Below, piece by piece: positions 10,305 to 62,440 of a DNA stretch of 64,000 nucleotides. Origin of the DNA: Uranotaenia lowii (lineage: Eukaryota > Arthropoda > Insecta > Diptera > Culicidae). The notes below the pieces were generated by a model, which did no database searches, was not told where the DNA came from, and was given only the letters and a program-made list of their open reading frames with translations. The DNA is taken from positions 143,218,853 to 143,282,852 of the forward strand of contig NC_073693.1 of the NCBI RefSeq assembly GCF_029784155.1, in the 5' to 3' direction. Each line of letters starts with the position of its first letter. The first letter of the stretch is position 1. A program made the translations under genes and the position numbers.

Positions 10305-10505
10305 CGATGATCCAATTTGAAGTGTGGTGAGCTGCGGCATCATTCCGTACGGTACGGCGGCAGCCGGGTTTTCACTGGACATGATCATCGAAACACCCCG
10401 GGGTTGAACCGGAGTGACGGTGTCCGTTTTGTACGGCGTTCCGACGCTCAGATGGGGTGTTTGCATCTGCACGTACTGCTGCGGATTTGGAGATAGCGAA
10501 AGCAC
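10305..10505 (-). CDS. shep: shep/RBMS exon: C-terminal low-complexity region
   Basis: A 201-nt exon, phase 0 in and out, after a 59-nt intron (10506-10564; donor GTGAGT, acceptor AATGTAG). The sense strand reads [17 protein letters not shown], then [13 protein letters not shown] and [13 protein letters not shown]. This is a Pro/Gln/Met/Ser-rich tail as in the C-terminal half of shep. The donor TCG|GTAAGT is at 10304. Reading through it gives VSF and then a stop within 20 nt, so further exons are expected; none was recognised between 1 and 10300. The branch-site-like TACTAAA sits only about 10 nt before the acceptor, unusually close. Confidence 0.88.
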
Positions 10506-10564: not shown

Positions 10565-10932
10565 CTGATCATCGACTGGGGCAATCGGTTGGGTCATCAT
10601 GTACCCGGGAACCCACTGGGATCCGGGCATGGCATAGCCGCCGACCTGTGGGGTTCCAAACCGGCCATAGGGCATCCCGATGTGGGCACCTACATTCACT
10701 CCGATACCGTTTTGCTGCAGATTGGGATCGTACGTGACCGGAATACCTTCGGCTCCATCGCGCCAGGACCGGGCATTCGGATCCGGGCTCTTGAAGGCGT
10801 TCTTCTTCTTAGAGCCTCCATCGGCGAACTTCACTAGCAACGGTTCCTTGGCACCCTGCAGCTGCGTCCCGTTGAACATCTGAATGATTTGTTCGCATTT
10901 CTCTCGAGACTCCATCCGAGCGAAACCGACAC
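10565..10932 (-). CDS. shep: shep/RBMS exon: second half of RRM2 and conserved linker
   Basis: The minus strand, starting at CACCAG|GTGTCGG, reads [17 protein letters not shown] (RNP1 of RRM2 plus the following helix). It continues through LLVKFADGG, a lysine-rich KKK patch and [11 protein letters not shown], then a Gly/Pro/Met/Tyr-rich stretch ending [16 protein letters not shown]. All are shep-family landmarks. It is 368 nt, phase 1 in and phase 0 out, with donor CAG|GTGAGT at 10564. The second beta-alpha-beta part of RRM2 is complete. The lower-complexity segment after FADGG is the usual family linker, not a recognised domain. Confidence 0.95.
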
Positions 10933-11063: not shown

Positions 11064-11205
11064 CCTTGGACTGAGTGTTCTGGTCGCGCAAAATTCTTGT
11101 CGAGATAACCTGACCGTACTTGGAAAGAAGGTTTTCCACGTCCGTTTCCTTATAGTTAAGTGGTAGATTAGCGATGTACAGATTAGTGGGATCCTGTTCT
11201 TGTTG
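11064..11205 (-). CDS. shep: shep/RBMS exon: first half of RRM2
   Basis: The minus strand reads [18 protein letters not shown] and on to [18 protein letters not shown] is RNP2 of RRM2, and the [11 protein letters not shown] stretch is diagnostic of shep/RBMS proteins just after the RRM1-RRM2 linker. The exon starts in phase 0 (142 nt from 11205) and ends in phase 1 at AAGG|GTGAGT (donor at 11063). The next exon supplies GT GTC GGT to rebuild K-G-V-G-F, so RNP1 of RRM2 is split by this intron. The following intron is 131 nt. An alternative acceptor 3 nt upstream would add one Gln. There is no frameshift or stop. Confidence 0.95.
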
Positions 11206-23450: not shown

Positions 23451-26400
23451 TTGTCAAAATTGTCAAAATTGTCAAAATTCTCCAAAATGTCGAAATTGTC
23501 AAAATTCTCAAAAATGTCGAAATTGTCAAAATTATCAAAATTGATAAAATTGTCAAAATTGTCAAAATTGTCAAAATTGTCAAAATTGTCAAAATTGTCA
23601 AAATTGTCAAAATTGTCAAAATTGTCAAAATTGTCAAAATTGTCAAAATTGTCAAAATTGTCAAAATTGTCAAAATTGTCAAAATTGTCAAAATTGTCGA
23701 AATTGTCAAATTTGTCAAAATTGTCAAAATTGTCGAAATTGTCAGAACTGTCAAAATTGTCAAAATTGTCAAAATTGTCAAAATTGTCAAAACTGTGAAA
23801 ATTGTAAAAATTGTCAAAATTGTCAAAATTGTCAAAATTGTCAAAACTGTCAAAACCTGTCAAAATTGTCAAAATTGTCAAAATTGTCAAAATTGTCAAA
23901 ATTGTCAAAATTGTCAAAATTGTAAAAATTGTCAAAATTGTCAAAATTGTCAAAATTGTCAAAATTGTCAAAATTGTCAAAATTGTCAAAATTGTCAAAA
24001 TTGTCAAAATTGTCAAAATTGTCAAAATTGTCAAAATTGTCAAAATTGTCAAAATTGTCAAAATTGTCAAAATTGTCAAAATTGTAAAAATTGTCAAAAT
24101 TGTAAAAATTGTCGAAATTGTCAAAATTGTCAAAATTGTCAAAATTGTCAAAATTGTCAAAATTGTCAAAATTGTCAAAATTGTCGAAATTGTCAAAGTT
24201 GTCAAAATTGTCAAAATTGTCAAAATTGTCAAAATTGTCAAAATTGACAAAATTGTCAAAATTGTCAAAATTGTCAAAATTGTCAAAATTGTCAAAATTG
24301 TCAAAATTGTCAAAATTGTCAAAATTGTCAAAATTGTCAAAATTGTCAAAATTGTAAAAATTGTAAAAATTGTAAAAATTGTCGAAATTGTCGAAATTGT
24401 CAAAATTGTCAAAATTGTCAAAATTGTCAAAATGGTCAAAATTGTCAAAATTGTCAAAATTGTCAAAATTGTCAAAATTGTCAAAATTGTCAAAATTGTC
24501 AAAATTGTCAAAATTGTCAAAATTGTCGAAATTGTCAAATTTGTCAAAATTGTCAAAATTGTCGAAATTGTCAAAACTGTCAAAATTGTCAAAATTGTCA
24601 AAACTGTCAAAATTGTCAAAACTGTCAAAATTGTAAAAATTGTCAAAATTGTCAAAATTGTCAAAACTGTCAAAACCTGTCAAAATTGTCAAAACTGTCA
24701 AAACCTGTCAAAATTGTCAAAATTGTCAAAATTGTCAAAATTGTCAAAATTGTCAAAATTGTCAAAATTGTCAAAATTGTCAAAATTGTCAAAATTGTCA
24801 AAATTGTCAAAATTGTCAAAATTGTCAAAATTGTCAAAATTGTCAAAATTGTCAAAATTGTCAAAATTGTCAAAATTGTCAAAATTGTCAAAATTGTCAA
24901 AATTGTCAAAATTGTCAAAATTGTCAAAATTGTCAAAATTGTCAAAATTGTCAAAATTGTCAAAATTGTCAAAATTGTCAAAATTGTCAAAATTGTCAAA
25001 ATTGTCAAAATTGTCAAAATTGTCAAAATTGTCAAAATTGTCAAAATTGTCAAAATTGTCAAAATTGTCAAAATTGTCAAAATTGTCAAAATTGTCAAAA
25101 TTGTCAAAATGGTCAAAATTGTCAAAATTGTCAAAATTGTCAAAATTGTCAAAATTGTCAAAATTGTCAAAATTGTCAAAATTGTCAAAATTGTCAAAAT
25201 TGTCAAAATTGTCAAAATTGTCAAAATTGTCAAAATTGTCAAATTTGTCAAAATTGTCAAAATTGTCAAAATTGTCAAAACTGTCAAAATTGTCAAAACT
25301 GTCAAAATTGTCAAAATTGTCAAAATTGTCAAAATTGTCAAAATTGTCAAAACCTGTCAAAATTGTCAAAATTGTCAAAATTGTCAAAATTGTCAAAATT
25401 GTCAAAATTGTCAAAATTGTCAAAATTGTCAAAATTGTCAAAATTGTCAAAATTGTCAAAATTGTCAAAATTGTCAAAATTGTCAAAACTGTCAAAACCT
25501 GTCAAAATTGTCAAAATTGTCAAAATTGTCAAAATTGTCAAAATTGTCAAAATTGTCAAAATTGTCAAAATTGTCAAAATTGTCAAAATTGTCAAAATTG
25601 TCAAAATTGTCAAAATTGTCAAAATTGTCAAAATTGTCAAAATTGTCAAAATTGTCAAAATTGTCAAAATTGTCAAAATTGTCAAAATTGTCAAAATTGT
25701 CAAAATTGTCAAAATTGTCAAAATTGTCAAAATTGTCAAAATTGTCAAAATTGTCAAAATTGTCAAAATTGTCAAAATTGTCAAAATTGTCAAAATTGTC
25801 AAAATTGTCAAATTTGTCAAAATTGTCAAAATTGTCAAAATTGTCAAAGTTGTCAAAGTTGTCAAAATTGTCAAAATTGTCAAAATTGTCAAAATTGTCA
25901 AAATTGTCAAAATTGTCAAAATTGTCAAAATTGTCAAAATTGTCAAAATTGTCAAAATTGTCAAAATTGTCAAAATTGTCAAAATTGTCAAAATTGTCAA
26001 AATTGTCAAAATTGTCAAAATTGTCAAAATTGTCAAAATTGTCAAAATTGTCAAAATTGTCAAAATTGTCAAAATTGTCAAAATTGTAAAAATTGTCAAA
26101 ATTGTCAAAACTGTCAAAATTGTCAAAATTGTCAAAATTGTCAAAATTGTCAAAATTGTCAAATTTGTCAAAATTGTCAAAATTGTCAAAATTGTCAAAA
26201 TTGTCAAAATTGTCAAAATTGTCAAAATTGTGAAAATTGTCAAAATTGTCAAAATTGTGAAAATTGTCAAAATTGTGAAAATTGTCAAAATTGTCAAAAT
26301 TGTCAAAATTGTCAAAATTGTCAAAATTGTCAAAATTGTCAAAATTGTCAAAATTGTCAAAATTTTCAAAATTGTCAAAATTTTAAAAATTGTCAAAATT

Positions 26401-29375
26401 GTCAAAATTGTCAAAATTGTCAAAATTGTCAAAATTGTCAAAATTGTCAAAATTGTCAAAATTGTCAAAATTGTCAAAATTGTCAAAATTGTCAAAATTG
26501 TCAAAATTATCAAAATTGCCAAGATTGTCAAAATTATCAAAATTGTCAAAATTGTCAAAATTATCAAAATTGTCAAAATTGTCAAAATTGTCAAAATTGT
26601 CAAAATTGTCAAAATTGTCAAAATTGTCAAAATTGTCAAAATTGTCAAAATTGTCAAAATTGTCAAAATTGTCAAAATTGTCAAAATTGTCAAAATTGTC
26701 AAAATTGTCAAAATTGTCAAAATTGTCAAAATTGTCAAAATTGTCAAAATTGTCAAAATTGTCGAAGTTGTCAAAATTGTCAAAATTGCCAAAATTGCCA
26801 AAATTGTCAAAATTGTCAAAATTGTCAAAATTGTCAAAATTGTCAAAATTGTCAAAATTGTCAAAATTGTCGAAATTGTCAAAATTGTCAAAATTGTCAA
26901 AATTGTCAAAATTGTCAAAATTGTCAAAATTGTCAAAATTGTCAAAATTGTCAAAATTGTCAAAATTGTCAAAATTGTCAAAATTGTTAAAAATGTCGAA
27001 ATCGTCAAAATTGTTAAAATTGTCAAAATTGTCAAAATGGTCCAAATTGTCAAAATTGTCAAAATTGTCAAAATTGTCAAAATTGTCAAAATTGTCAAAA
27101 TTGTCAAAATTGTCAAAATTGTCAAAATTGTCAAAATTGTCAAAATTGTCAAAATTGTCAAAATTGTCAAAATTGTCAAAATTGTCAAAATTGTCAAAAT
27201 TGTCAAAATTGTCAAAATTGTCAAAATTGTCAAAATTGTCAAAATTGTCAAAATTGTCAAAATTGTCAAAATTGTCAAAATTGTCAAAATTGTCAAAATT
27301 GTCAAAATTGTCAAAATTGTCAAAATTGTCAAAATTGTCAAAATTGTCAAAATTGTCAAAATTGTCAAAATTGTCAAAATTGTCAAAATTGTCAAAATTG
27401 TCAAAATTGTCAAAATTGTCAAAATTGTCAAAATTGTCAAAATTGTCAAAATTGTCAAAATTGTCAAAATTGTCAAAATTGTCAAAATTGTCAAAATTGT
27501 CAAAATTGTCAAAATTGTCAAAATTGTCAAAATTGTCAAAATTGTCAAAATTGTCAAAATTGTCAAAATTGTCAAAATTGTCAAAATTGTCAAAATTGTC
27601 AAAATTGTCAAAATTGTCAAAATTGTCAAAATTGTCAAAATTGTCAAAATTGTCAAAATTGTCAAAATTGTCAAAATTGTCAAAATTGTCAAAATTGTCA
27701 AAATTGTCAAAATTGTCAAAATTGTCAAAATTGTCAAAATTGTCAAAATTGTCAAAATTGTCAAAATTGTCAAAATTGTCAAAATTGTCAAAATTGTCAA
27801 AATTGTCAAAATTGTCAAAATTGTCAAAATTGTCAAAATTGTCAAAATTGTCAAAATTGTCAAAATTGTCAAAATTGTCAAAATTGTCAAAATTGTCAAA
27901 ATTGTCAAAGTTGTCAAAATTGTCAAAATTGTCAAAATTGTCAAAATTGTCAAAATTGTAAAAATTGTCAAAATTGTCAAAATTGTCAAAATTGTCAAAA
28001 TTGTCAAAATTGTCAAAATTGTCAAAATTGTCAAAATTGTCAAAATTGTCAACATTGTCAAAATTGTCAAAATTGTCAAAATTGTCAAAATTGTCAAAAT
28101 TGTCAAAATTGTCAAAATTGTCAAAATTGTCAAAATTGTCAAAATTGTCAAAATTGTCAAAATTGTCAAAATTGTCAAAATTGTCAAAATTGTCAAAATT
28201 GTCAAAATTGTCAAAATTGTCAAAATTGTCAAAATTGTCAAAATTGTCAAAATTGTCAAAATTGTCAAAATTGTCAAAATTGTCAAAATTGTCAAAATTG
28301 TCAAAATTGTCAAAATTGTCAAAATTGTCAAAATTGTCAAAATTGTCAAAATTGTCAAAATTGTCAAAATTGTCAAAATTGTCAAAATTGTCAAAATTGT
28401 CAAAATTGTCAAAATTGTCAAAATTGTCAAAATTGTCAAAATTGTCAAAATTGTCAAAATTGTCAAAATTGTCAAAATTGTCAAAATTGTCAAAATTGTC
28501 AAAATTGTCAAGATTGTCAAAATTGTCAAAATTGTCAAAATTGTCAAAATTGTCAAAATTGTCAAAATTGTGAAAATTGTCAAAACTGTCAAAATTGTCA
28601 AAATTGTCAAAATTGTCAAAATTGTCAAAATTGTCAAAATTGTCAAAATTGTAAAATTGTCAAAATTGTCAAAATTGTCAAAATTGTCAAAATTGTCAAA
28701 ATTGTCAAAATTGTCAAAATTGTCAAAATTGTCAAAATTGTAAAATTGTCAAAATTGTCAAAATTGTCAAAATTGTCAAAATTGTCAAAATTGTCAAAAT
28801 TGTCAAAATTGTCAAAATTGTCAAAATTGTCAAAATTGTCAAAATTGTCAAAATTGTAAAAATTGTCAAAATTGTCAAAATTGTCAAAATTGTCAAAATT
28901 GTCAAAATTGTCAAAATTGTCAAAATTGTCAAAATTGTCAAAATTGTCAAAATTGTCAAAATTGTCAAAATTGTCAAAATTGTCAAAACTGTCAAAATTA
29001 TCAAAATTGTAAAAATTGTCAAAATTGTCAAAATTGTCAAAATTGTCAAAATTGTCAAAATTGTCAAAATTGTCAAAATTGTCAAAATTGTCAAAATTGT
29101 CAAAATTGTCAAAATTGTCAAAATTGTCAACATTGTCAAAATTGTCAAAATTGTCAAAATTGTCAAAATTTTTCAAAATTGTCAAAATTGTCAAAATTGT
29201 CAAAATTGACAAAATTGTCAAAATTGTCAAAATAGTCAAAATTGTCAAAATTGTCAAAATTGTCAAAATTGTCAAAATTGTCAAAATTGTCAAAATTGTC
29301 AAAATTGTCAAAATTGTCAAAATTGTCAAAATTGTCAAAATTGTCAAAATTGTCAAAATTGTCAAAATAGTCAAA
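23451..29375. repeat. satellite block 1, T-type
   Basis: Almost pure AAAATTGTC. It carries five of the seven 10-bp units with AACCTGTC (near 23856, 24676, 24704, 25353, 25498), 8-bp units near 28650 and 28740, and an ATTTTTCAAA break at 29168. Confidence 0.9.
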
Positions 29376-30711
29376 ATTGACAAAATTGACAAACTTGACA
29401 AAATTGACAAAATTGACAAAATTGACAAAATTGACAAAATTGATAAAATTGACAAAATTGACAAAATTGACAGAATTGATAAAATTGACAAAACTGACAA
29501 AATTGACAAAATTAACAAAATTGACAAAATTGACAAAATTGACAAAATTGTCAAAATTGACAAAATTGACAAAATTGACAAAATTGACAAAATTGACAAA
29601 ATTGTCAAAATTGACAAAATTGACAAAATTGACAAAATTGACAAAATTGACAAAATTGACAAAATTGACAAAATTGACAAAATTGACAAAATTGACAAAA
29701 TTGACAAATATGACAAAATTGACAAACTTGACAAAATTGACAAAATTGACAAAATTGAAAAAATTGACAAAATTGACAAAATTGGAAAAATAGGCAAAAT
29801 TGTCAAAATTGATAAAATTGACAAAATTGACAAAATTGACAAAATTGACAAAATTGACAAAATTGACAAAATTGACAAAATTGAAAAAATTGACAAAATT
29901 GATAAAATTGACAAAATTGACAAAATTTTACAAAATTAACAAAATTGACAAAATTGACAAAATTGACAAAATTGACAAAATCAACAAAATTGACAAAATT
30001 GTCAAAATTGTCAAAAATGTCAAAATTGTCAAAATTGTCAAAATGGTCAAAATTGTCGAAATTGTCAAAATTGTCAAAATTGTCAAAATTGTCAAAATTA
30101 TCAAAATTGTCAAAATTGTCAAAATTGTCAAAATTGTCAAAATTGTCAAAATTGACAAAATTGACAAACTTGACAAAATTGACAAAATTGAAAGAATTGA
30201 CAAAATTGACAAAATTGTCAAAATTGACTTAATTGACAAAATTAACAAAATTGACAAAATTGACAAAATTGACAAAATTGACAAAATTGACAAAATTGAC
30301 AAAATTAACAAAATTGACAAAATTGACAAAATTGACAAAATTGACAAAATTGACAAAATTGAAAAAAATTGACAAAATTGACAAAATTGACAAAATTGAC
30401 AAAATTAACAAAATTGACAAAATTGACAAAATTGACAAAATTGACAAAATTGACAAAATTGACAAAATTAACAAAATTGACAAAATTGACAAAATTGACA
30501 AAGTTGACAAAATTGACAAAATTGACAAAATTGACAAAATTGACAAAATTGACAAAATTGACAAAATTGACAAAATTGAAAAAATTGAAAAAATTGACAA
30601 AATTGACAAAATTCACAAAATTGACAAAATTGACAAAATTGACAAAATTGACAAAATTGACAAAATTGACAAAATTGACAAAATTGACAAAATTGACAAA
30701 ATTGACAAAAT
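29376..30711. repeat. satellite block 2, A-type with T-type island
   Basis: AAAATTGAC units with a T-type island at 30001-30151. Markers include ATTGGAAAAATAGGC (29781), TTTTACAAAATTAAC (29932) and GACTTAATTGAC (30226). Confidence 0.88.
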
Positions 30712-33700
30712 TGTCAAAATTGTCAAAATTGTCAAAATTGTCAAAATTGTCAAAATTGTCAAAATTGTCAAAATTGTCAAAATTGTCAAAATTGTCAAAA
30801 TTGTCAAAATTGTCAAAATTGTCAAAATTGTCAAAATTGTCAAAATTGTCAAAATTGTCAAAATTGTCAAAATTGTCAAAATTGTCAAAATTGTCAAAAT
30901 TGTCAAAATTGTCAAAATTGTCAAAATTGTCAAAATTGTCAAAATTGTCAAAATTGTCAAAATTGTCAAAATTGTCAAAATTGTCAAAATTGTCAAAATT
31001 GTCAAAATTGTCAAAATTGTCAAAATTGTCAAAATTGTCAAAATTGTCAAAATTGTCAAAATTGTCAAAATTGTCAAAATTGCCAAGATTGTCAAAATTG
31101 TCAAAATTATCAAAATTGTCAAAATTGTCAAAATTGTCAAAATTGTCAAAATTGTCAAAATTGTCAAAATTGTCAAAATTGTCAAAATTGTCAAAATTGT
31201 CAAAATTGTCAAAATTGTCAAAATTGTCAAAATTGTCAAAATTGTCAAAATTGTCAAAATTGTCAAAATTGTCAAAATTGTCAAAATTGTCAAAATTGTC
31301 GAAGTTGTCAAAATTGTCAAAATTGCCAAAATTGCCAAAATTGTCAAAATTGTCAAAATTGTCAAAATTGTCAAAATTGTCAAAATTGTCAAAATTGTCA
31401 AAATTGTCAAAATTGTCAAAGTTGTCAAAGTTGTCAAAATTGTCAAAATTGTCAAAATTGTCAAAATTGTCAAAATTGTCAAAACTGTCAAAACCTGTCA
31501 AAATTGTCAAAATTGTCAAAATTGTCAAAATTGTCAAAATTGTCAAAATTGTCAAAATTGTCAAAATTGTCAAAATTGTCAAAATTGTCAAAATTGTCAA
31601 AATTGTCAAAATTGTCAAAATTGTCAAAATTGTCAAAATTGTCAAAATTGTCAAAATTGTCAAAATTGTCAAAATTGTCAAAATTGTCAAAATTGTCAAA
31701 ATTGTCAAAATTGTCAAAATTGTCAAAATTGTCAAAATTGTCAAAATTGTCAAAATTGTCAAAATTGTCAAAATTGTCAAAATTGTCAAAATTGTCAAAA
31801 TTGTCAAAATTGTCAAAATTGTCAAAATTGTCAAAATTGTCAAAATTGTCAAAATTGTCAAAATTGTCAAAATTGTCAAAATTGTCAAAATTGTCAAAAT
31901 GGTCAAAATTGTCAAAATTGTCAAAATTGTCAAAATTGTCAAAATTGTCAAAATTGTCAAAATTGTCAAAATTGTCAAAATTGTCAAAATTGTCGAAATT
32001 GTCAAATTTGTCAAAATTGTCAAAATTGTCGAAATTGTCAAAACTGTCAAAATTGTCAAAATTGTCAAAATTGTCAAAATTGTCAAAACTGTCAAAATTG
32101 TCAAAATTGTCAAAATTGTCAAAATTGTCAAAACTGTCAAAACCTGTCAAAATTGTCAAAATTGTCAAAATTGTCAAAATTGTCAAAATTGTCAAAATTG
32201 TCAAAATTGTCAAAATTGTCAAAATTGTCAAAATTGTCAAAATTGTCAAAATTGTCAAAATTGTCAAAATTGTCAAAATTGTCAAAATTGTCAAAATTGT
32301 CAAAATTGTCAAAATTGTCAAAATTGTCAAAATTGTCAAAATTGTCAAAATTGTCAAAATTGTCAAAATTGTCAAAATTGTCAAAATTGTCAAAATTGTC
32401 AAAATTGTCAAAATTGTCAAAATTGTCAAAATTGTAAAAATTGTCAAAATTGTCAAAACTGTCAAAATTGTCAAAATTGTCAAAATTGTCAAAATTGTCA
32501 AAATTGTCAAATTTGTCAAAATTGTCAAAATTGTCAAAATTGTCAAAATTGTCAAAATTGTCAAAATTGTCAAAATTGTCAAAATTGTCAAAATTGTCAA
32601 AATTGTCAAAATTGTGAAAATTGTCAAAATTGTGAAAATTGTCAAAATTGTCAAAATTGTCAAAATTGTCAAAATTGTCAAAATTGTCAAAATTGTCAAA
32701 ATTGTCAAAATTGTCAAAATTGTCAAAATTGTCAAAATTTTCAAAATTGTCAAAATTTTAAAAATTGTCAAAATTGTCAAAATTGTCAAAATTGTCAAAA
32801 TTGTCAAAATTGTCAAAATTGTCAAAATTGTCAAAATTGTCAAAATTGTCAAAATTGTCAAAATTGTCAAAATTATCAAAATTGCCAAGATTGTCAAAAT
32901 TATCAAAATTGTCAAAATTGTCAAAATTGTCAAAATTGTCAAAATTGTCAAAATTGTCAAAATTGTCAAAATTGTCAAAATTGTCAAAATTGTCAAAATT
33001 GTCAAAATTGTCAAAATTGTCAAAATTGTCAAAATTGTCAAAATTGTCAAAATTGTCAAAATTGTCAAAATTGTCAAAATTGTCAAAATTGTCAAAATTG
33101 TCAAAATTGTCAAAATTGTCAAAATTGTCAAAATTGTCAAAATTGTCAAAATTGTCAAAATTGTCAAAATTGTCGAAGTTGTCAAAATTGTCAAAATTGC
33201 CAAAATTGCCAAAATTGTCAAAATTGTCAAAATTGTCAAAATTGTCAAAATTGTCAAAATTGTCAAAATTGTCAAAATTGTCAAAATTGTCGAAATTGTC
33301 AAAATTGTCAAAATTGTCAAAATTGTCAAAATTGTCAAAATTGTCAAAATTGTCAAAATTGTCAAAATTGTCAAAATTGTCAAAATTGTCAAAATTGTCA
33401 AAATTGTCAAAATTGTCAAAATTGTTAAAAATGTCGAAATCGTCAAAATTGTCAAAATTGTCAAAATTGTCAAAATGGTCCAAATTGTCAAAATTGTCAA
33501 AATTGTCAAAATTGTCAAAATTGTCAAAATTGTCAAAATTGTCAAAATTGTCAAAATTGTCAAAATTGTCAAAATTGTCAAAATTGTCAAAATTGTCAAA
33601 ATTGTCAAAATTGTCAAAATTGTCAAAATTGTCAAAATTGTCAAAATTGTCAAAATTGTCAAAATTGTCAAAATTGTCAAAATTGTCAAAATTGTCAAAA

Positions 33701-35680
33701 TTGTCAAAATTGTCAAAATTGTCAAAATTGTCAAAATTGTCAAAATTGTCAAAATTGTCAAAATTGTCAAAATTGTCAAAATTGTCAAAATTGTCAAAAT
33801 TGTCAAAATTGTCAAAATTGTCAAAATTGTCAAAATTGTCAAAATTGTCAAAATTGTCAAAATTGTCAAAATTGTCAAAATTGTCAAAATTGTCAAAATT
33901 GTCAAAATTGTCAAAATTGTCAAAATTGTCAAAATTGTCAAAATTGTCAAAATTGTCAAAATTGTCAAAATTGTCAAAATTGTCAAAATTGTCGAAATTG
34001 TCAAAATTGTCAAAATTGTCAAAATTGTCAAAATTGTCAAAATTGTCAAAATTGTCAAAATTGTCAAAATTGTCAAAATTGTCAAAATTGTCAAAATTGT
34101 CAAAATTGTCAAAATTGTCAAAATTGTCAAAATTGTCAAAATTGTCAAAATTGTCAAAATTGTCAAAATTGTCAAAATTGTCAAAATTGTCAAAATTGTC
34201 AAAATTGTCAAAATTGTCAAAATTGTCAAAATTGTCAAAATTGTCAAAATTGTCAAAATTGTCAAAATTGTCAAAATTGTCAAAATTGTCAAAGTTGTCA
34301 AAATTGTCAAAATTGTCAAAATTGTCAAAATTGTCAAAATTTGTTAAAATTGTAAAAATTGTCAAAATTGTCAAAATTGTCAAAATTGTCAAAATTGTCA
34401 AAATTGTCAAAATTGTCAAAATTGTCAAAATTGTCAACATTGTCAAAATTGTCAACATTGTCAAAATTGTCAAAATTGTCAAAATTGTCAAAATTGTCAA
34501 AATTGTCAAAATTGTCAAAATTGTCAAAATTGTCAAAATTGTCAAAATTGTCAAAATTGTCAAAATTGTCAAAATTGTCAAAATTGTCAAAATTGTCAAA
34601 ATTGTCAAAATTGTCAAAATTGTCAAAATTGTCAAAATTGTCAAAATTGTCAAAATTGTCAAAATTGTCAAAATTGTCAAAATTGTCAAAATTGTCAAAA
34701 TTGTCAAAATTGTCAAAATTGTCAAAATTGTCAAAATTGTCAAAATTGTCAAAATTGTCAAAATTGTCAAAATTGTCAAAATTGTCAAAATTGTCAAAAT
34801 TGTCAAAATTGTCAAAATTGTCAAAATTGTCAAAATTGTCAAGATTGTCAAAATTGTCAAAATTGTCAAAATTGTCAAAATTGTCAAAATTGTGAAAATT
34901 GTCAAAACTGTCAAAATTGTCAAAATTGTCAAAATTGTCAAAATTGTCAAAATTGTCAAAATTGTCCAAATTGTCAAAATTGTAAAATTGTCAAAATTGT
35001 CAAAATTGTCAAAATTGTCAAAATTGTCAAAATTGTCAAAATTGTCAAAATTGTCAAAATTGTAAAATTGTCAAAATTGTCAAAATTGTCAAAATTGTCA
35101 AAATTGTCAAAATTGTCAAAATTGTCAAAATTGTCAAAATTGTCAAAATTGTCAAAATTGTCAAAATTGTAAAAATTGTCAAAATTGTCAAAATTGTCAA
35201 AATTGTCAAAATTGTCAAAATTGTCAAAATTGTCAAAATTGTCAAAATTGTCAAAATTGTCAAAATTGTCAAAACTGTCAAAATTATCAAAATTGTAAAA
35301 ATTGTCAAAATTGTCAAAATTGTCAAAATTGTCAAAATTGTCAAAATTGTCAAAATTGTCAAAATTGTCAAAATTGTCAAAATTGTCAAAATTGTCAAAA
35401 TTGTCAACATTGTCAAAATTGTCAAAATTGTCAAAATTGTCAAAATTTTTCAAAATTGTCAAAATTGTCAAAATTGTCAAAATTGACAAAATTGTCAAAA
35501 TTGTCAAAATTGTCAAAATAGTCAAAATTGTCAAAATTGTCAAAATTGTCAAAATTGTCAAAATTGTCAAAATTGTCAAAATTGTCAAAATTGTCAAAAT
35601 TGTCAAAATTGTCAAAATTGTCAAAATTGTCAAAATTGTCAAAATTGTCAAAATTGTCAAAATTGTCAAAATAGTCAAAA
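30712..35680. repeat. satellite block 3, T-type
   Basis: AAAATTGTC units. Holds AACCTGTC units near 31494 and 32143, GCCAAGATTGTC near 31082 and 32884, GTTAAAAATGTCGAAATCG at 33424, and 8-bp units near 34980 and 35060. Confidence 0.9.
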
Positions 35681-37113
35681 TTGACAAACTTGACAAAATT
35701 GACAAAATTGACAAAATTGACAAAATTGACAAAATTGATAAAATTGACAAAATTGACAAAATTGACAAAATTGATAAAATTGACAAAACTGACAAAATTG
35801 ACAAAATTAACAAAATTGACAAAATTGACAAAATTGACAAAATTGTCAAAATTGACAAAATTGACAAAATTGACAAAATTGACAAAATTGACAAAATTGA
35901 CAAAATTGTCAAAATTGACAAAATTGACAAAATTGACAAAATTGACAAAATTGACAAAATTGACAAAACTGACAAAATTGACAAAATTGACAAAATTGAC
36001 AAAATTGACAAAATTGACAAAATTGACAAAATTGACAAAATTGACGAAATTGACAAAATTGACAAAATTGACAAAATTGACAAAATCGACAAAATTGACA
36101 AAATTGACAAAATTGACAAATATGACAAAATTGACAAACTTGACAAAATTGACAAAATTGACAAAATTGACAAAATTGGAAAAATAGGCAAAATTGTCAA
36201 AATTGATAAAATTGACAAAATTGACAAAATTGACAAAATTGACAAAATTGACAAAATTGACAAAATTGACAAAATTGAAAAAATTGACAAAATTGATAAA
36301 ATTGACAAAATTGACAAAATTTTACAAAATTAACAAAATTGACAAAATTGACAAAATTGACAAAATTGACAAAATCAACAAAATTGACAAAATTGTCAAA
36401 ATTGTCAAAAATGTCAAAATTGTCAAAATTGTCAAAATGGTCAAAATTGTCGAAATTGTCAAAATTGTCAAAATTGTCAAAATTGTCAAAATTATCAAAA
36501 TTGTCAAAATTGTCAAAATTGTCAAAATTGTCAAAATTGTCAAAATTGACAAAATTGACAAACTTGACAAAATTGACAAAATTAAAAGAATTGACAAAAT
36601 TGACAAAATTGTCAAAATTGACTTAATTGACAAAATTAACAAAATTGACAAAATTGACAAAATTGACAAAATTGACAAAATTGACAAAATTGACAAAAAT
36701 AACAAAATTGACAAAATTGACAAAATTGACAAAATTGACAAAATTGACAAAATTGACAAAATTGAAAAAAATTGACAAAATTGACAAAATTGACAAAATT
36801 GACAAAATTAACAAAATTGACAAAATTGACAAAATTGACAAAATTGACAAAATTGACAAAATTAACAAAATTGACAAAATTGACAAAATTGACAAAGTTG
36901 ACAAAATTGACAAAATTGACAAAATTGACAAAATTGACAAAATTGACAAAATTGACAAAATTGACAAAATTGACAAAATTGACAAAATTGAAAAAATTGA
37001 AAAAATTGACAAAATTGACAAAATTCACAAAATTGACAAAATTGACAAAATTGACAAAATTGACAAAATTGACAAAATTGACAAAATTGACAAAATTGAC
37101 AAAATTGACAAAA
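35681..37113. repeat. satellite block 4, A-type with T-type island
   Basis: Repeats block 2, with the same markers in the same order: GGAAAAATAGGC (36177), TTTTACAAAATTAAC (36319), an island at 36391-36544, and GACTTAATTGAC (36620). Confidence 0.88.
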
Positions 37114-39454
37114 TTGTCAAAATTGTCAAAATTGTCAAAATTGTCAAAATTGTCAAAATTGTCAAAATTGTCAAAATTGTCAAAATTGTCAAAATTGTCA
37201 AAATTGTCAAAATTGTCAAAATTGTCAAAATTGTCAAAATTGTCAAAATTGTCAAAATTGTCAAAATTGTCAAAATTGTCAAAATTGTCAAAATTGTCAA
37301 AATTGTCAAAATTGTCAAAATTGTCAAAATTGTCAAAATTGTCAAAATTGTCAAAATTGTCAAAATTGTCAAAATTGTCAAAATTGTCAAAATTGTCAAA
37401 ATTGTCAAAATTGTCAAAATTGTCAAAATTGTCAAAATTGTCAAAATTGTCAAAATTGTCAAAATTGTCAAAATTGTCAAAATTGTCAAAATTGTCAAAA
37501 TTGTCAAAATTGCCAAGATTGTCAAAATTGTCAAAATTATCAAAATTGTCAAAATTGTCAAAATTGTCAAAATTGTCAAAATAGTCAAAATTGTCAAAAT
37601 TGTCAAAATTGTCAAAATTGTCAAAATTGTCAAAATTGTCAAAATTGTCAAAATTGTCAAAATTGTCAAAATTGTCAAAATTGTCAAAATTGTCAAAATT
37701 GTCAAAATTGTCAAAATTGTCGAAGTTGTCAAAATTGTCAAAATTGCCAAAATTGCCAAAATTGTCAAAATTGTCAAAATTGTCAAAATTGTCAAAATTG
37801 TCAAAATTGTCAAAATTGTCAAAATTGTCAAAATTGTCAAAATTGTCAAAATTGTTAAAAATGTCAAAATCGTCAAAATTGTCAAAATTGTCAAAATTGT
37901 CAAAATTGTCAAAATGGTCCAAATTGTCAAAATTGTCAAAATTGTCAAAATTGTCAAAATTGTCAAAATTGTCAAAATTGTCAAAATTGTCAATAATGTC
38001 AAAATTGTCAAAATTGTCAAAACTGTCAAAATTGTCAAAATTGTCAAAATTGTCAAAATTGTCAAAATTGTCAAAATTGTCAAAATTGTCAAAATTGTCA
38101 AAATTGTCAAAATTGTCAAAATTGTCAAAATTGTCAAAATTGTCAAAATTGTCAAAATTGTCAAAATTGTCAGAATTGTCAAAATTGTCAAAATTGTCAA
38201 AATTGTCAAAATTGTCAAAATTGTCAAAATTGTCAAAATTGTCAAAATTGTCAAAATTGTCAAAATTGTCAAAATTGTCAAAATTGTCAAAATTGTCAAA
38301 ATTGTCAAAATTGTCAAAATTGTCAAAATTGTCAAAATTGTCAAAATTGTCAAAATTGTCAAAATTGTCAAAATTGTCAAAATTGTCAAAATTGTCAAAA
38401 TTGTCAAAATTGTCAAAATTGTCAAAATTGTCAAAATTGTCAAAATTGTCAAAATTGTCAAAATTGTCAAAATTGTCAAAATTGTCAAAATTGTCAAAAT
38501 TGTCAAAATTGTCAAAATTGTCAAAATTGTCAAAATTGTCAAAATTGTCAAAATTGTCAAAATTGTCAAAATTGTCAAAATTGTCAAAATTGTTAAAATT
38601 GTCAAAATTGTCAAAATTGTCAAAATTGTCAAAATTGTCAAAATTGTCAAAATTGTCAAAATTGTCAAAATTGTCAAAATTGTCAAAATTGTCAAAATTG
38701 TCAAAATTGTCAAAATTGTCAAAATTGTCAAAATTGTCAAAATTGTCAAAATTGTCAAAATTGTCAAAATTGTCAAAATTGTCAAAATTGTCAAAATTGT
38801 CAAAATTGTCAAAATTGTCAAAATTGTCAAAATTGTCAAAATTGTCAAAATTGTCAAAATTGTCAAAATTGTCAAAGTTATCAAAATTGTCAAAATTGTC
38901 AAAATTGTCAAAATTGTCAAAATTGTCAAAATTGTCAAAATTTGTTAAAATTGTCAAAATTGTCAAAATTGTCAAAATTGTCAAAATTGTCAAAATTGTC
39001 AAAATTGTCAAAATTGTCAAAATTGTCAAAATTGTCAAAATTGTCAAAATTGTCAAAATTGTCAAAATTGTCAAAATTATTAAAATTGTCAAAATTGTCA
39101 AAATTGTCAAAATTGTCAAAATTGTCAAAATTGTCAAAATTGTCAAAATTGTCAAAATTGTCAAAATTGTCAAAATTGTCAAAATTGTCAAAATTGTCAA
39201 AATTGTCAAAATTGTCAAAATTGTCAAAATTGTCAACATTGTCAAAATTGTCAAAATTGTCAAAATTGTCAAAATTGTCAAAATTGTCAAAATTGTCAAA
39301 ATTGTCAAAATTGTCAAAATTGTCAAAATTGTCAAAATTGTCAAAATTGTCAACATTGTCAAAATTGTCAAAATTGTCAAAATTGTCAAAATTGTCAAAA
39401 TTGTCAAAATTGTCAAAATTGTCAGAATTGTCAGAATTGTCAAAATTGTCAAAA
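37114..39454. repeat. satellite block 5, T-type
   Basis: AAAATTGTC units repeating part of block 3: GCCAAGATTG at 37512, GCCAAAATTGCC near 37745, GTTAAAAATGTC at 37854. Confidence 0.88.
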
Positions 39455-42400
39455 TTGACAAAATTGACAAACTTGACAAAATTGACAAAATTGACAAAAT
39501 TGATAAAATTGACAAAATTGACAAAATTGACAAAATTGACAAAATTGACAAAATTGACAAAATTGACAAAATTGACAAAATTGACAAAATTGACAAAATT
39601 GACAAAATTGACAAAATTGACAAAATTGACAAAATTGACAAAATTGACAAAATCGAAAAAATTGACAAAATTGACAAAATTGACAAAATTGACAAAATTG
39701 ACAAAATTGACAAAATTGAAAAAATTGACAAAACTGACAAAATTGGAAAAATTGGCAAAATTGTCAAAATTGATAAAATTGACAAAATTGACAAAATTGA
39801 CAAAATTGACAAAATTGACAAAATTGACAAAATTGACAAAATTGACAAAATTGACAAAATTGACAAAATTGACAAAATTGACAAAATTGACAAAATTGAC
39901 AAAATTGAAAAAATTGACAAAATTGACAAAATTGACAAAATTGACAAAATTGACAAAATTAACAAAATTGACAAAATTGACAAAATTGACAAAATTAACA
40001 AAATTGACAAAATTAACAAAATTGACAAAATTGTCAAAATTGTCAAAAATGTCAAAATTGTCAAAATTATCAAAATTGTCAAAATTGTCAAAATTGTCAA
40101 AATTGTCAAAATTGTCAAAATTGTCAAAATTGTCAAAATTGTCGAAATTGTCAAAATTGTCAAAATTGTCAAAATTGTCAAAATTGTCAAAATTGACAAA
40201 ATTGACAAACTTGACAAACCTGACAAAATTGACAAAATTGACAAAATTGACAAAATTGACAAAATTGACAAAATTGACAAAATTGACAAAATTGACAAAA
40301 TTGACAAAATTGACAAAATTGACAAAATTGACTTAATTGACAAAATTAACAAAATTGACAAAATTGACAAAATTGACAAAATTAACAAAATAGTCAAAAT
40401 TGACAAAATTGACAAACTTGACAAAATTGACAAAATTGACAAAATTGACAAAATTGACAAAATTGATAAAATTGACAAAACTGACAAAATTGACAAAATT
40501 AACAAAATTGACAAAATTGACAAAATTGACAAAATTGTCAAAATTGACAAAATTGACAAAATTGACAAAATTGACAAAATTGACAAAATTGACAAAATTG
40601 TCAAAATTGACAAAATTGACAAAATTGACAAAATTGACAAAATTGACAAAATTGACAAAATTGACAAAATTGACAAAATTGACAAAATTGACAAAATTGA
40701 CAAAATTGACAAAATTGACAAAATTGACAAAATTGACAAAATTGACAAAATTGACAAAATTGACAAAATTGACAAAATTGACAAAATTGACAAAATTGAC
40801 AAAATTGACAAAATTGACAAAATTGACAAAATTGACAAAATTGACAAAATTGACAAAATTGACAAAATTGACAAAATTGACAAAATTGACAAAATTGACA
40901 AAATTGACAAAATTGACAAAATTGACAAAATTGACAAAATTGACAAAATTGACAAAATTGTAAAAATTGACAAAATTGACAAAATTGACAAAATTGACAA
41001 AATTGACAAAATTGTCAAAATTGACAAAATTGACAAAATTGACAAAATTGACAAAATTGACAAAATTGACAAAATTGACAAAATTGACAAAATTGACAAA
41101 ATTGACAAAATTGACAAAATTGACAAAATTGACAAAATTGACAAAATTGACAAAATTGACAAAATTGACAAAATTGACAAAATTGACAAAATTGACAAAA
41201 TTGACAAAATTGACAAAATTGACAAAATTGACAAAATTGACAAAATTGACAAAATTGACAAAATTGACAAAATTGACAAAATTGAAAAAATTGACAAAAT
41301 TGACAAAATTGTCAAAAATGTCAAAATTGTCAAAATTGTCAAAATTGTCAAAATTGTCAAAATTGTCAAAATTGTCAAAATTGTCAAAATTGTCAAAATT
41401 GTCAAAATTGTCAAAATTGTCAAATTGTCAAAATTGTCAAAATTGCCAAAATTCTCAAAATTGTCAAAATTGTCAAAATTGTCAAAATTGTCAAAATTGT
41501 CAAAATTGTCAAAATTGTCAGAATTGTCAAAATTGTCAAAATTGTCAAAATTGTCAAAATTGTCAAAATTGTCAAAATTGTCAAAATTGTCAAAATTGTC
41601 AAAATTGTCAAAATTGTCAAAATTGTCAAAATTGTCAAAATTGTCAAAATTGTCAAAATTGTCAAAATTGTCAAAATTGTCAAAATTGTCAAAATTGTCA
41701 AAATTGTCAAAATTGTCAAAATTGTCAAAATTGTCAAAATTGTCAAAATTGTCAAAATTGTCAAAATTGTCAAAATTGTTAAAAATGACAAAATTGACAA
41801 AATGACAAAATGACAAAATTGAAAAAATTGACAAAATTGACAAAATTGACACAATTGACAAAATTGACAAAATTGACAAAATTGACAAAATTGACAAAAT
41901 TGACAAAATTGACAAAATTGACAAAATTGACAAAATTGACAAAATTGACAAAATTGAAAAAATTTACAAAATTGACAAAAATGTCAAAATTGTCAAAATT
42001 GTCAAAATTGTCAAAATTGTCAAAATTGTCAAAATTGTCAAAATTGTCAAAATTGTCAAAATTGACAAAATTGACAAACTTGACAAACCTGACAAAATTG
42101 ACAAAATTGAAAAAATTGACAAAATTGACAAAATTGACAAAATTGACAAAATTGACAAAATTGACAAAATTGACTTAATTGACAAAATTAACAAAATTGA
42201 CAAAATTGACAAAATTGACAAAATTGACAAAATTGACAAAATTGACAAAATTGACAAAATTGACAAAATTGACAAAATTGACAAAATTGACAAAATTGAC
42301 AAAATTGACAAAATTGACAAAATTGACAAAATTGACAAAATTGACAAAATTGACAAAATTGACAAAATTGACAAAATTGACAAAATTGACAAAATTGACA

Positions 42401-42509
42401 AAATTGACAAAATTGACAAAATTGACAAAATTTACAAAATTTACAAAATTTACAAAATTGACAAAATTGACAAAATTGACAAAATTGACAAAATTGACAA
42501 AATTGACAA
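39455..42509. repeat. satellite block 6, mostly A-type with T-type islands
   Basis: A-type units with T-type islands at about 40031-40191, 41311-41785 and 41981-42061. The doublet ACTTGACAAACCTGAC occurs near 40207 and 42075. GACTTAATTGAC occurs at 40330 and 42172. Confidence 0.85.
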
Positions 42510-42720
42510 TTTACTAAATTTTGTAACCAAATTGTTTCTACAGAATTGTCACCAAAACTGGGCACAAAATTGTTTCAAATTCGTCCCTAATTTAAGTATC
42601 TCAAAATGGTCGAAAATAAGAAATTACAATTTTTCTCAAAACTGTCAGAAATTTTTCACTGTTTTGTTTAAGACTGTCATTTTGTTTTCTCAAATTGTCG
42701 CGGAGTTGCCACATTTTTGA
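42510..42720. repeat. right edge of the satellite: decayed units
   Basis: Scattered AAATTGT, AACTGTCAG, AAGACTGTCATTTTG and CAAATTGTCGCGG fade over 200 bp, ending in GGAGTTGCCACATTTTTG. Confidence 0.6.
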
Positions 42721-45700
42721 TCAAAATATTTTTGCTAAATAAGATATCATAAAATTGTAACACATTTGTCATAATCATTTTCACATTTTCAAAAGTCGGA
42801 TAAACATATGACTTCAATATTGAGTAAAAATGTACAACAAAAATTATGGAATTACGAATCAAGCCATTGTTTTTGTTGATTTTGTGATTAAGGGCAAATA
42901 AATTCGATTTTTGTTTCGTACAATGAACTATGAGATATTGTAAATTAACATTTTATGAATGACTTGTTATTTTGAACAACAAGCTCTGAGAACCACAAGA
43001 AAATTTAAATTTTGTAACGTTCAACTAATGTCGTAATTTTCGTAAATTATATTTCAGAAAGCTTCACAACACAAAAATAAAGATAAAATTTCACACGTCA
43101 AATTTGGAAGAAAACGACATTCTCTAAAGATTGTTGAAGATTTCGCCGACGTTTAAAAATCTAAAGAAAAACATATTTGATGAAACCCTACTACAAGAAA
43201 AAAAAACAGAAAAAACAAGACAACACTCGCAATGAAAAGGCTCAATCCAACTCGGTTTAGTCTAGGATATCTTCATTCGGAAATCACATTTTTCAAGTTT
43301 TTTTTTCGGTTTGTTGTTATTTGTTTTTTTTTCTCTGGTTTACTTCAAATTAAGTTAGATATATCTAGATAAAACAGGTAAACGAGAGAACAAACAGCGG
43401 CTGAACAAAACTATGTATCACTAAAATGCGCTCTTAAAACTGGGGGCAGGGCAAAAAGGTGAGGAACAAATGTTTTTCTAACTATAAGTTCTATATGTCG
43501 AATGTTTTTTGTGTCTGTGTGTCTAAGCATTTGTTTGAAAATGTATGTTTGTGTGTGTGTTTTCAAACAGCAGATTGGAATCCTTCTTTTCCGGCTTTCG
43601 AACTTTTCCGAGGGAGGGTGTTCTAAAACTGTGTTGGGGACAACTATCAGTAGAAGGAAGTTTCTGGGGATAATCGGCAGGGGTAGTTTGAAGACCAACG
43701 AGAAGAATTGTTCTGCTTCTAGCGAAAATATCGTACTAAAAACCATTTGGAAAGGGGAACCAACACTCTATTTCTATGTCTAGGTATATGCGGATATAAG
43801 ACGATAAAACATGGTCTGGTTTCTCTAGCATCTAAGGTTGTCTATAAACTAGTTATGTTTGTTTCTGTTTTTTTGGAGGTTGGGTGGGTAAGGGGGGATG
43901 CCTAGGTGGGGAAAACTGGAAATTTAACGGGCTGGGCTGGACTTCTTTCGGGGATGATAAATGTGGAAACCGGAAGGAAACCTGAAGGGATTTGAATAAA
44001 CTTAATTTTGATTACAGAATAAATAAAATACCAGATTCGAATAAACTAAACCACTGCGAAAACCAATGCGGAACAGAAAAACACATGTAGGTTCGTACTG
44101 TATAGGGGAATGGGGGGATGATGACGATAATAATGATGATAACGTCCCGGTTTGCTTTTTTGGAAGGGAAATTTGTGGCGTTTGGAGAAAACGTTCACAA
44201 TTTGCTCGATAATTGCAGCAGCAAAGTTGTGCTGTGCTGGTGATATTCTACAATTTTTTCCCGGGGTTTGGTCGGTTTTGTGGAACAAGTCTGGGGTTAG
44301 GTTTGGTTAGAATTTAATGATAACAGAGAAGACCGTTCGTTCTCTCAGATTAGGTTAATTATGTGTGCACTAGACAGTTTGTGAACAAGTAAGGGAACCA
44401 GAGGTTCCGAGATTACTACAAAACTAGCCAATCGAGGCCTGACTAGATTACAGTTTTGAACTCTCCTACCGAAACCGAATCGTTGGTTGGGTTAGTGTTA
44501 GGGGCAGAAATTTAGCAATGGTAGCAGTTAAATTTTGGTTGCTAATTACTGTGCGGTTGGTTTTTTTTTTGGTATTTTGGTTGAAGTTTTGAGAGATACA
44601 ATTTGGGGGGCGGTACAAGTTCTGTAGGATGTCGGGAAAGTGGAATTTTATAATATTTTCGAGTGATTTTAAAGAGAAATCTATCTGAGGAAGCGAAGTA
44701 TGAGATATGGTTCGTTATGTCATTTGATAGATTACTTGATTGAATTTATTGTTCATGGCCCCGGAATAGTAATGTGTGAAATACTTCCTCCCACATTATA
44801 CTGGTTTTCGTTTAGAATAAATTACAAAATTTTCTATTTTAAACTGTGATAGTTTAAATACATGATTCAAACTAGTAAGAATTTTTATTTTCCGAAATAT
44901 TCAGATTGAATCAAATCTTTATCTTATATTTTGAAGTAGGTATTTGCTAGATACAGTTGTTCTAATTCAATGTGAGTTAATTCCCTTGTTATTTTTTTAA
45001 AGACAATAAAGCTGGGATTACCTTTTGACAATTTTTTTTAAATTGGTTTTAAACAGTATATTTTAATGAACGGTATATTTAAATTAAAAAAAAAACAGTT
45101 ATTAGGATGGCTTGTATGCAAACACTCTTCCAGAAGAAATGGATGCACTTGGAAGAAGACGGATTGCTCTTCGTGGCTCACTAATTTGTTAGCTTTTCAT
45201 ACATTTATTTTTCCGTGTTCATTTTATTGTAATTTTGTTTATTTTAGATTTAAAAAAAAGGGTCAACACTTTTAGGTCGTCAAACAGATTACATTAGCAA
45301 GAAAAAAATGTGCAACTGTGAGTTAATCGACGGGTGTTAAACAAAAATCACACCGTAGAAGTGGTCCAACCTTCCGTAGTAATATCGGATGTTTTTTATG
45401 TTTACGTCTATATGTATGCAGCACACAAACAGCAATTTTCGAATTGAAGCTCAAGTAACAGGAATTGTGTTTAATTGGGTTTGACCAAAAAAAGAAAATA
45501 TCTGCAATTGATCTTTCCATATTTTGTTAGTTAAATGGCATCATGAATTTGTAAGCTTCTCGATTTTCCGCGAAATTTTACAAAATGTACTCCTTTTTTT
45601 TAAAGACATTGTTTCAGAGCATCATTTTTTATTGCTGTATATTATCATGTTTTATCATGTTTGTCAGCAAAATACCATATCTTTCGAAAATAATAATCTA

Positions 45701-53930: not shown

Positions 53931-54022
53931 GTGTGTGTGCGTGTGTTGGTGAGGGGTAAGTATTACTTGCATGCAAACAAACGTACAATGGCCGGCCTAT
54001 GTAGCACCCAGATACCCACTTT
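53931..54022 (-). promoter_or_regulatory. alternative 5' splice-site control region with UGCAUG and CA repeat
   Basis: On the sense (minus) strand the proximal donor GTGGGT (54019) is followed 33 nt later by the distal donor GTACGT (53986). The hexamer TGCATG (53975-53970) comes 11 nt after the distal donor. A CA-rich run (53948-53931) follows about 40 nt after it. UGCAUG is the known Rbfox site, and CA repeats are known hnRNP L-type sites. Their role here is inferred from position only. Confidence 0.55.
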
Positions 54023-54111
54023 GGCCATCTGGGCTTGAATGCCCTTCGCTTGGAGACCTTTGACGGCACCTTCGGCGCACGCCGACGATTCGAAGTCAAC
54101 AAATCCGTAAC
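53987..54111 (-). CDS. shep: shep/RBMS exon: C-terminal part of RRM1 (two alternative donors)
   Basis: Internal coding exon of an alan shepard/RBMS-family RNA-binding protein. The minus strand reads GYGFVDFES, which is the RNP1 motif of RRM1 (first Gly split over the splice junction), then a segment ending GIQAQMAK, the family signature at the RRM1-RRM2 linker. The acceptor is CATTAG|G at 54112, and the exon starts in phase 1. Two in-frame donors are present. GTGGGT at 54019 ends the exon at MAK (92 nt). GTACGT at 53986 adds 33 nt and 11 residues, [11 protein letters not shown]. Both leave phase 0, matching the next exon at 11205. Reading past both donors gives VRLFACK and a stop. The family binds AU-rich single-stranded RNA or DNA, and in flies shep acts in neurons. 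The exon with the start of RRM1 was not found up to 64000 and should lie beyond. Confidence 0.93.
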
Positions 54112-54562
54112 CTAATGCGGGTGGGGAGCAAGAAAGTTTTCGGATGGAAAAAGAAAGAGAGAGAGAGAAAGAAAAAAATGTGACAACAAATCGGTTACGG
54201 TTAATTGGGTGGGATTTGTTTTCGATGGGATCTCTTACGGGGTTTTGATTTTGGCGAACGGGGCCAGCTTACCTTTACATTTGTTTGTTGTTTTATCTAG
54301 TATTGCCTTTGTGGAGATGATAGTACCGTATCTGAAAAAAAAAAGAAAAAGAAAATGGTCAGACTTTGAGGGACCAGTAGTACGCTTTTAAATACCTAAA
54401 CAAATGAGATTCTCGTTTGTTATATTTAATCGAATCATTTGACGGTACCGAAATTTATACTTTTTAAAGCAATGAATTTGTATGAATTTTTCAGTAGCCA
54501 TGCGTCTTAAAAACTGGGTTGTTCATAAAGTTTCACGGTTTGCTAAGAGAAAGCTTTTTTAT

Positions 54563-61110: not shown

Positions 61111-62440
61111 TCTCTCTTGACCTAAAGAACGCTTTCAACAGCGTCAGTTGGGCAGCGATTGCGTCGTCGCTCATCAACATGAGGATTCCGGCATATTTCT
61201 GCAGGATGGTGGAGTGTTACTTCCGTGACCGCCAACTACAGTATATGACCAGCGAGAGACTGGAAATAGTAGAGTCTCGGCATGGGTTCCACAAGGATCG
61301 ATAATTGGCCCGGTATTGTGGAACATTGTCTACGACGAACTGCTGAGACTGCGTCTCCCCACGGGAGTGAGACTTGTGGGATTCGCCGATGACGTGGTTC
61401 TCCTGGCATCGGGCCCATCAACCGAAGAGGTCCAGCAACTCGCCACAGTAGCTATCGAGAAGGTGGAAAGTTGGATGCGCTCCAAGAGCTTACGTCTGGC
61501 TCACCACAAGATCGAGATGGTGCTGATCACCAACCTGATCTCAGCACAATCAGGGACGATTGCAGTTGGACCGTGCAAAATCGAGTTCAAGCGTGCGATT
61601 AAATACCTGGGGGTGATGATCGACGACCGGCTATACTTCACGGCCCGTGTCGACTACGCCTGTAAAAGAGCGGCAATGGCGACAGCAGCCTTCTCACGGG
61701 CCATGTCGAACAACTTGGCGATCCGCTGCAGCAGAAGGAGGGTCCTGGCGAGTGTGACCTCGTCCATTCTGCGGTACGGAGTGGCAGCCTGGAAGGCAGC
61801 CCTGAGCAGGCAGTGTAACCTGCAAAAGCACTGCAGTGTACAGCGGCTGATGAACCTGCGAGTAATCAGCGCATACAAAACAATGTCCTCGGTAGCTGCT
61901 GATGTTGTGGCGGGGGTCATGCCCATCTCGGTCTTGCTAGAGGAAGATACCTTCCGCTACGAGCACAGGCACATGTCCGAAGTGCGGAAACATGCCAGAG
62001 AGGCTTCGCTGTCCAACTGGCAGCACCAGTGGGACAGCTCGGAACGTGGCCGGTGGACCCATCGCTTGATCCCTAACATCGGATCCTGGATGGACCGGAG
62101 ACACGGAGAGGTGGATTTCTGCATGACACAGTTCTTGACTGGTCACGGATATTTCATGCAGTACCACCATCGGTTTGGACATGTGGCCTCGCCATCCTGT
62201 CCAACCTGCGATGACACAATAGAGACACCAGAGCACGTAGTGTTCAACTGTCCGAGGTTCGAAGGGGTACGTGCTAACATGCTTGCCGCCTGCGGACCAG
62301 ACACGACAGCCGATAACATCGTGTGGAGGATGTGTGAGGATGCCAATACTTGGCGCGTGGTCAGCGATGGGTTGACCCGGATCATGACTGCCCTGCAGAG
62401 AAGTTGGAACCAGCACCAGTCCGCGACCGGTTTAGGGTGA
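61111..62440 (+). pseudogene. R1-clade reverse transcriptase, C-terminal two-thirds, one frameshift
   Basis: Frame 1 encodes SLDLKNAFNSVSW, RT motif A with its catalytic Asp, up to about 61275. It is then joined by a frameshift (1-nt loss or 2-nt gain) to VPQGSIIGPVLWNIVYDE. The second frame runs to TGA at 62438-62440. It contains FADDV (61383-61397), the catalytic Asp pair, then the thumb region (IKYLGVMIDDRLYF). The C-terminal zinc-knuckle-like CPTCDDTIETPEHVVFNC (CX2CX8HX4C) follows HRFGH, typical of R1-clade elements, which lack RNase H. Upstream RT motifs, endonuclease and ORF1 are absent. Codon use and GC (over 50%) contrast with the AT-rich host intron. Confidence 0.88.

Follow-up and report, generated by a model that had tools for sequence, protein, structure and literature searches.

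Short-unit satellites are usually seen as makers of heterochromatin, and 5-bp satellites are described in the heterochromatin of Drosophila in excerpts from PMC10048060 and PMC12692304. The same excerpts report satellites dispersed in the euchromatin of several insects, and in the red palm weevil as much as 20.4% of the genome consists of the major satellite. Here, a 64,000 nt stretch of chromosome C3 from the culicine mosquito Uranotaenia lowii (assembly GCF_029784155.1, 1,077,602,043 bases in total) was analysed. This stretch is called the window and window coordinates are positions within it, while C1, C2 and C3 are the three chromosomes. It carries part of the shep (alan shepard) gene, and the intron between the exons for the first and second RNA recognition motifs (RRM1 and RRM2) holds a 19 kb array of a 9-bp unit. 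The array is an ordinary, though rather long, example of a satellite family with short units fitting AAAAWTKWC that is both abundant and dispersed. Probably it is a locally expanded member of this family, which is dispersed over the three chromosomes, and it would have grown in place and be passively transcribed and spliced out. We know of no record of the 9-bp repeat in open-licence papers, whether under the unit, its rotations or mosquito tandem repeats, and the accessible part of PMC10981705 makes no mention of a satellite in U. lowii.

Tandem Repeats Finder (TRF) reports a single array at window 23451-42509 (forward strand) with a period of 9, 2116.8 copies, 96% matches and a score of 32145, and identity at a lag of 9 bases is 0.962. 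When parsed unit by unit, the array contains 2118 units, of which 1405 are AAAATTGTC, 425 are AAAATTGAC and 288 (13.6%) are variants of 62 other types, with 22 single-base indels (15 insertions and 7 deletions). The first-pass annotation described about 2,100 uninterrupted copies. The number and the absence of foreign sequence are borne out by the parse, but the copies include the variant units. On a map of the parse, judged by eye, the major units are arranged in blocks, with AAAATTGTC predominant and zones of AAAATTGAC near 29.4-30.7, 35.6-37.1, 39.4-41.3 and 41.8-42.5 kb. Variants are enriched at the edges, with 8 of the first 10 units and 4 of the last 10, versus 288 of 2118 overall. The right edge (window 42510-42759, forward strand) has decayed units, with 6 nine-mers at most one mismatch from the unit (shuffle mean 0.6), and the same count finds none in the 250 bp to the left of the array.

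The unit is not peculiar to this locus. The 36-mer (AAAATTGTC)4 has 488,440 matches in the whole genome (239,895 on the forward and 248,545 on the reverse strand), and the reversed control has none on either strand. The 1049 matches in the window are 0.2% of the total and, together with the empty control, exclude a chance origin of the array. The motif AAAATTGTCAAAATTGAC has 2014 forward and 1806 reverse matches, with 5 and 1 for its control. An estimate from sites chosen regardless of content was obtained from 120 regularly spaced stretches totalling 75,000 bases (37 on C1, 46 on C2 and 37 on C3), with unplaced contigs excluded. Twenty stretches were of 2000, 80 of 400 and 20 of 150 bases, and C2 and C3 were sampled more thinly than C1. 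Arrays with a 9-bp unit were found in 8 of the 120, and 7 of these fit AAAAWTKWC (four with AAAAATGAC, two with AAAAATTAC and one with AAAATTGTC). Arrays of the family lie on all three chromosomes, and 6 of the 120 sample points are inside one at their first bases (5.0%, 95% confidence interval 1.9-10.6%).

Sixteen of 20 other array pieces, from fourteen 10 kb stretches of C1, were also profiled. They range from 0.6 kb to more than 7 kb, and the commonest unit is AAAATTGTC in 13 and AAAATTGAC in 3; a mixed motif served to locate the pieces, several of which are truncated at the ends of the 10 kb stretches. Since family arrays cover about 5% of sampled points, an array in a 43 kb intron is, as a rough estimate, no surprise, and the suggestion in the first-pass annotation that the satellite is remarkable for its position in the shep intron is not supported.

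Several other tandem repeats were seen in the sample. The eighth 9-bp array, of AAACGAACG at C2:60000213-60000400, is GC-richer, has 100% matches and is unrelated to AAAAWTKWC. Arrays with a 10-bp unit were present in two further stretches, and four sites hit tandem repeats of approximately 98, 143, 150 and 80 bp, indicating a genome rich in several kinds of tandem repeat. The window has a further tandem repeat at 3662-4231, with two copies of a 281-bp unit and 93% matches.

A unit present at very many places calls for a route of dispersal. The arrays could have been carried by transposable elements, such as Helitron-like or foldback types that contain tandem repeats internally, and would then have expanded after insertion. 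Carriage of this kind is described in several animals (excerpts of PMC10048060), and the arrays occur in both orientations. However, with tandem repeats masked, a comparison between loci of 600-bp flanks, 18 on the left and 19 on the right of arrays, found no shared carrier, and none was seen among the listed results for flanks of 2.5 kb. Its absence is not proved by these 37 flanks, because six of them were masked as tandem repeat over at least 90% of their length. Only one match joins loci with different names, and it consists of two identical direct repeats of 556 bp at C1 817,558-818,113 and 824,052-824,607. These are approximately 6.5 kb apart, and the 9-bp array continues on both outer sides. 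They bound a transposon-like insertion that landed inside an array, and this is not a carrier. As the insertion lies inside the array, the two pieces profiled there are halves of one array older than the insertion, and the identity of the repeats suggests that the insertion is recent. Dispersal by a transposon is considered unlikely, though it is the best of the alternatives. With one more shared base, the 556-bp repeats read TG...CA.

The sampled arrays are biased towards the distal arms. The outer 23% of half-chromosomes contains 27 of the 120 points and all six arrays met at the first base of a sample stretch (hypergeometric P = 8e-5), in a test picked after the positions had been seen, with centromeres assumed to be near the middle and unplaced contigs unsampled. 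A permutation of mean distance gave P = 0.0004. With the seventh family array (C1 84 Mb) included, P is 0.004. Among the 100 AAAATTGTCAAAATTGAC matches listed, which extend to C1 11.1 Mb, the density is 9.0 per Mb versus 3.5 genome-wide; this is in line with an excess in distal regions, although the figures are for motif matches and not for arrays. The shep array itself is interior, at 143 Mb of the 370 Mb of C3.

The host gene is a member of the RBMS/alan shepard family, with two RRMs and a 15-residue junction between them. The exon at window 54020-54111 (reverse strand, as are all shep exons here), encoding the C-terminal part of RRM1, joins that at 11064-11205, encoding the first part of RRM2, in an unbroken frame. 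Human RBMS1 (6m75) aligns across this junction, with the 15 junction residues identical. The junction is also shared with a 454-residue relative, P0001 (91% identity; encoded on a 2174-bp contig), and with Anopheles gambiae AGAP005964, which is named alan shepard. As proposed from the first-pass annotation, the gene is confirmed as shep, and the joining of the exons at 54 kb and 11 kb is supported by these alignments; the mosquito origin that the annotation assumed is also right. The intron between them extends over 11206-54019 (42,814 bp), and the array occupies 44.5% of it, in agreement with the earlier figure of about 45% of 42.8 kb.

A second splice donor 33 bp downstream (53987-54019) would extend the RRM1 exon to 53987, adding 11 residues and leaving an intron of 42,781 bp. 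An identical 11 residues are present in a Teleopsis shep isoform, and on this basis the alternative donor looks conserved across flies. The remaining exons in the window encode the middle of RRM1 (54271-54363, ends approximate), the rest of RRM2 and a linker (10565-10932) and the C-terminal part (10305-10505). Because its first residues are missing from relatives, the last of these may instead have its acceptor near 10481. The first RRM2 exon was placed from the open-frame join and the homologue alignments.

In a whole-genome search, the 454 residues of P0001 were covered by 8 collinear reverse-strand matches at C3 143,213,625-143,513,841, a span of about 300 kb for the shep coding exons. Two of the 8 contain stops, and both overrun exon ends, which is expected from an intron-blind search. 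The other 12 of the 20 matches are at most 42% identical, and so shep is found once in the genome at the sensitivity of the search. With the exons collinear, alternative gene structures were not needed. The largest shep intron, of about 225 kb, is between the first two matched coding exons, upstream of the window, and is not the one holding the array. It holds a 1.9 kb array of a 7-bp unit, AGAGATG (C3:143310451-143312395). Elsewhere in the window, 61229-62437 is a reverse transcriptase open reading frame (RVT_1) that shows 53% identity over 90% to a protein of Aedes albopictus, the source name of which points to an RTE element.

The array could instead be, as implied by the first-pass annotation, a heterochromatic satellite block in a gene that needs special handling of transcription, as for the gigantic-intron genes of the Drosophila Y chromosome. 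Short-unit satellites do exist in gigantic introns (PMC6508621 and excerpts of PMC11207136), and shep is long, given the 300 kb between its coding ends. However, gigantic introns are of hundreds of kb to megabases with satellite, and at 42.8 kb the intron holding the array is far below the megabase introns. Moreover, in the accessible part of PMC11207136, Drosophila genes with largest introns of 50-100 kb were not attenuated by perturbation of splicing. Concentration at centromeres or pericentromeres, which marks classical heterochromatic satellites, was not seen, the sampled family arrays being mostly in distal arms. A heterochromatic block is an improbable explanation.

Nor does the array carry strong signals for RNA processing. 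An acceptor was defined as at least 8 pyrimidines in 10 followed by NYAG. AATAAA, ATTAAA, GTRAGT and pyrimidine-tract acceptors are all absent from the 19.1 kb sense strand of the array, while the 23.8 kb of flanking intron has 48, 27, 6 and 35 of these in the sense direction. The antisense strand of the array has two ATTAAA. In the absence of processing signals from the sense strand, transcription probably passes through the array without special means. Neither AG nor CT occurs in the major units, and the array is likely to be tolerated because these units offer nothing usable as a splice acceptor, a splice donor or a poly(A) signal.

The array might also serve a function in shep, by delaying transcription, by giving the RNA a regulatory structure or by acting as a docking site for DNA-binding proteins. 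Four stretches of the array were folded (window 25600-25740, 29360-29500, 30600-30740 and 40600-40740), and in each the sense RNA is predicted to form a long imperfect hairpin, with z of -7.8 to -11.6 relative to shuffles; one stretch folded outside the array had z of +1.6. The array also makes the transcribed region 19 kb longer. The idea that folding is a trait of the family was considered and rejected, since arrays of AAAAATGAC and AAAAATTAC show no fold on 3 of 4 strands, and the fourth has z of -5.2. This argues against a function, as does the occurrence of the family throughout the genome. A role in shep is very unlikely, and the array is probably passive.

The array also has a larger-scale internal structure. 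In a unit-level self-alignment, the dominant off-diagonal match pairs window 24710-32860 with 30986-39208 and includes 840 matching, 14 mismatching and 112 gap units, with 71 of 84 variant columns identical. Its score of 620 compares with a maximum of 235 and a mean of 172 in 30 block shuffles. The match resolves into two copies of about 6.3 kb at 24710-30985 and 30986-37287, and a partial third copy at 37288-39208 (all forward strand). Over aligned bases, the partial copy and the start of copy 2 share 97.9% identity. Self-matches beyond 39208 score 168 and below and do not exceed the shuffles, so that only about 2.3 copies of the block are supported. At short lags, no higher-order repeat rose above 15 of 287 variant units, and the 6.3 kb copies alone stood out. 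Of the 29 gaps among copies 1 to 3, 17 are multiples of 9 and 8 are of a single base. Gaps of these sizes and the internal copies are the pattern expected when slippage is combined with either unequal exchange or a large tandem duplication. Long arrays of nearly identical tandem units are difficult to assemble, and copies 1 and 2 have 98.9% identity over aligned bases. Even so, an assembly artefact, either an expanded array or joined haplotypes, is the least credible explanation: the window contains no N, the two copies are separated by 67 base differences and 23 gaps, their overlap corresponds to about 2.3 tandem copies rather than to two complete alleles, and similar arrays are present elsewhere in the assembly.

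The preferred explanation, local growth of a dispersed family member, would involve the following steps. A short stretch of the family would have arrived in the shep intron and grown in situ to 19 kb, both by replication slippage with gains and losses of the size of the unit and by unequal exchange or larger tandem duplication, which would have given rise to the 6.3 kb internal copies. The shep gene would then transcribe the array as part of an ordinary intron and splice it out, with neutral tolerance of its presence.

Several points weigh against this explanation. We infer the arrival of the array, its age and the direction of its growth, and its transcription and splicing in U. lowii are predictions from the genome sequence. 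The explanation does not account for the route by which nine bases reached so many places. The shep array is the longest of the 17 pieces profiled, although the others were found using a motif and many are cut. Splice dinucleotides do occur on the sense strand, at 2.8 AG and 28.4 GT per kb, where the flanking intron has 45-47 and 44-49. Lack of AG and CT is also true of 23-75% of units of the same composition, so it is a property that permits tolerance and does not prove selection. Finally, given the strong fold of the array RNA, there may be an effect at the RNA level.

The question raised by the locus is how so short a repeat has spread so widely, rather than anything specific to shep. By the interval from the spaced sample, some 2-10% of the genome belongs to the 9-bp family. 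Together, its distal bias and its presence in a conserved gene for an RNA-binding protein provide a natural test of how repeats spread, of whether their growth is driven by recombination and of which units introns can tolerate. It is tentatively suggested, though it may well not hold, that around one base in 20 belongs to AAAAWTKWC arrays that spread over the arms without a transposon carrier, grow best in the recombination-rich distal arms and, being silent in RNA for want of splicing and polyadenylation signals, invade introns.

Among described systems, the family is like the satellites of Rhynchophorus ferrugineus, Rhodnius prolixus and Tribolium castaneum, as given in excerpts of PMC10048060 and PMC12692304, in having abundant arrays along the arms and beyond the centromeres. 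Those satellites are euchromatic, and the likeness of the U. lowii family to them is one of chromosomal position only. It differs from them in its 9-bp unit, closely related variants of which build arrays from hundreds of bases up to 19 kb long. With the 5-bp satellites of Drosophila (AAGAG type) it shares a short unit and long homogenised arrays. However, those satellites build heterochromatin (excerpts of PMC12692304), whereas the first-base arrays of U. lowii are all in the distal fraction described above. Like the Drosophila Y genes kl-3 and kl-5, shep has a satellite in an intron that must be transcribed, but those genes have megabase introns and are on the Y, while shep has this satellite in a 42.8 kb intron and is found once, on a 370 Mb chromosome. 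The U. lowii family thus unites two known features, a very short unit and a dispersed distribution.

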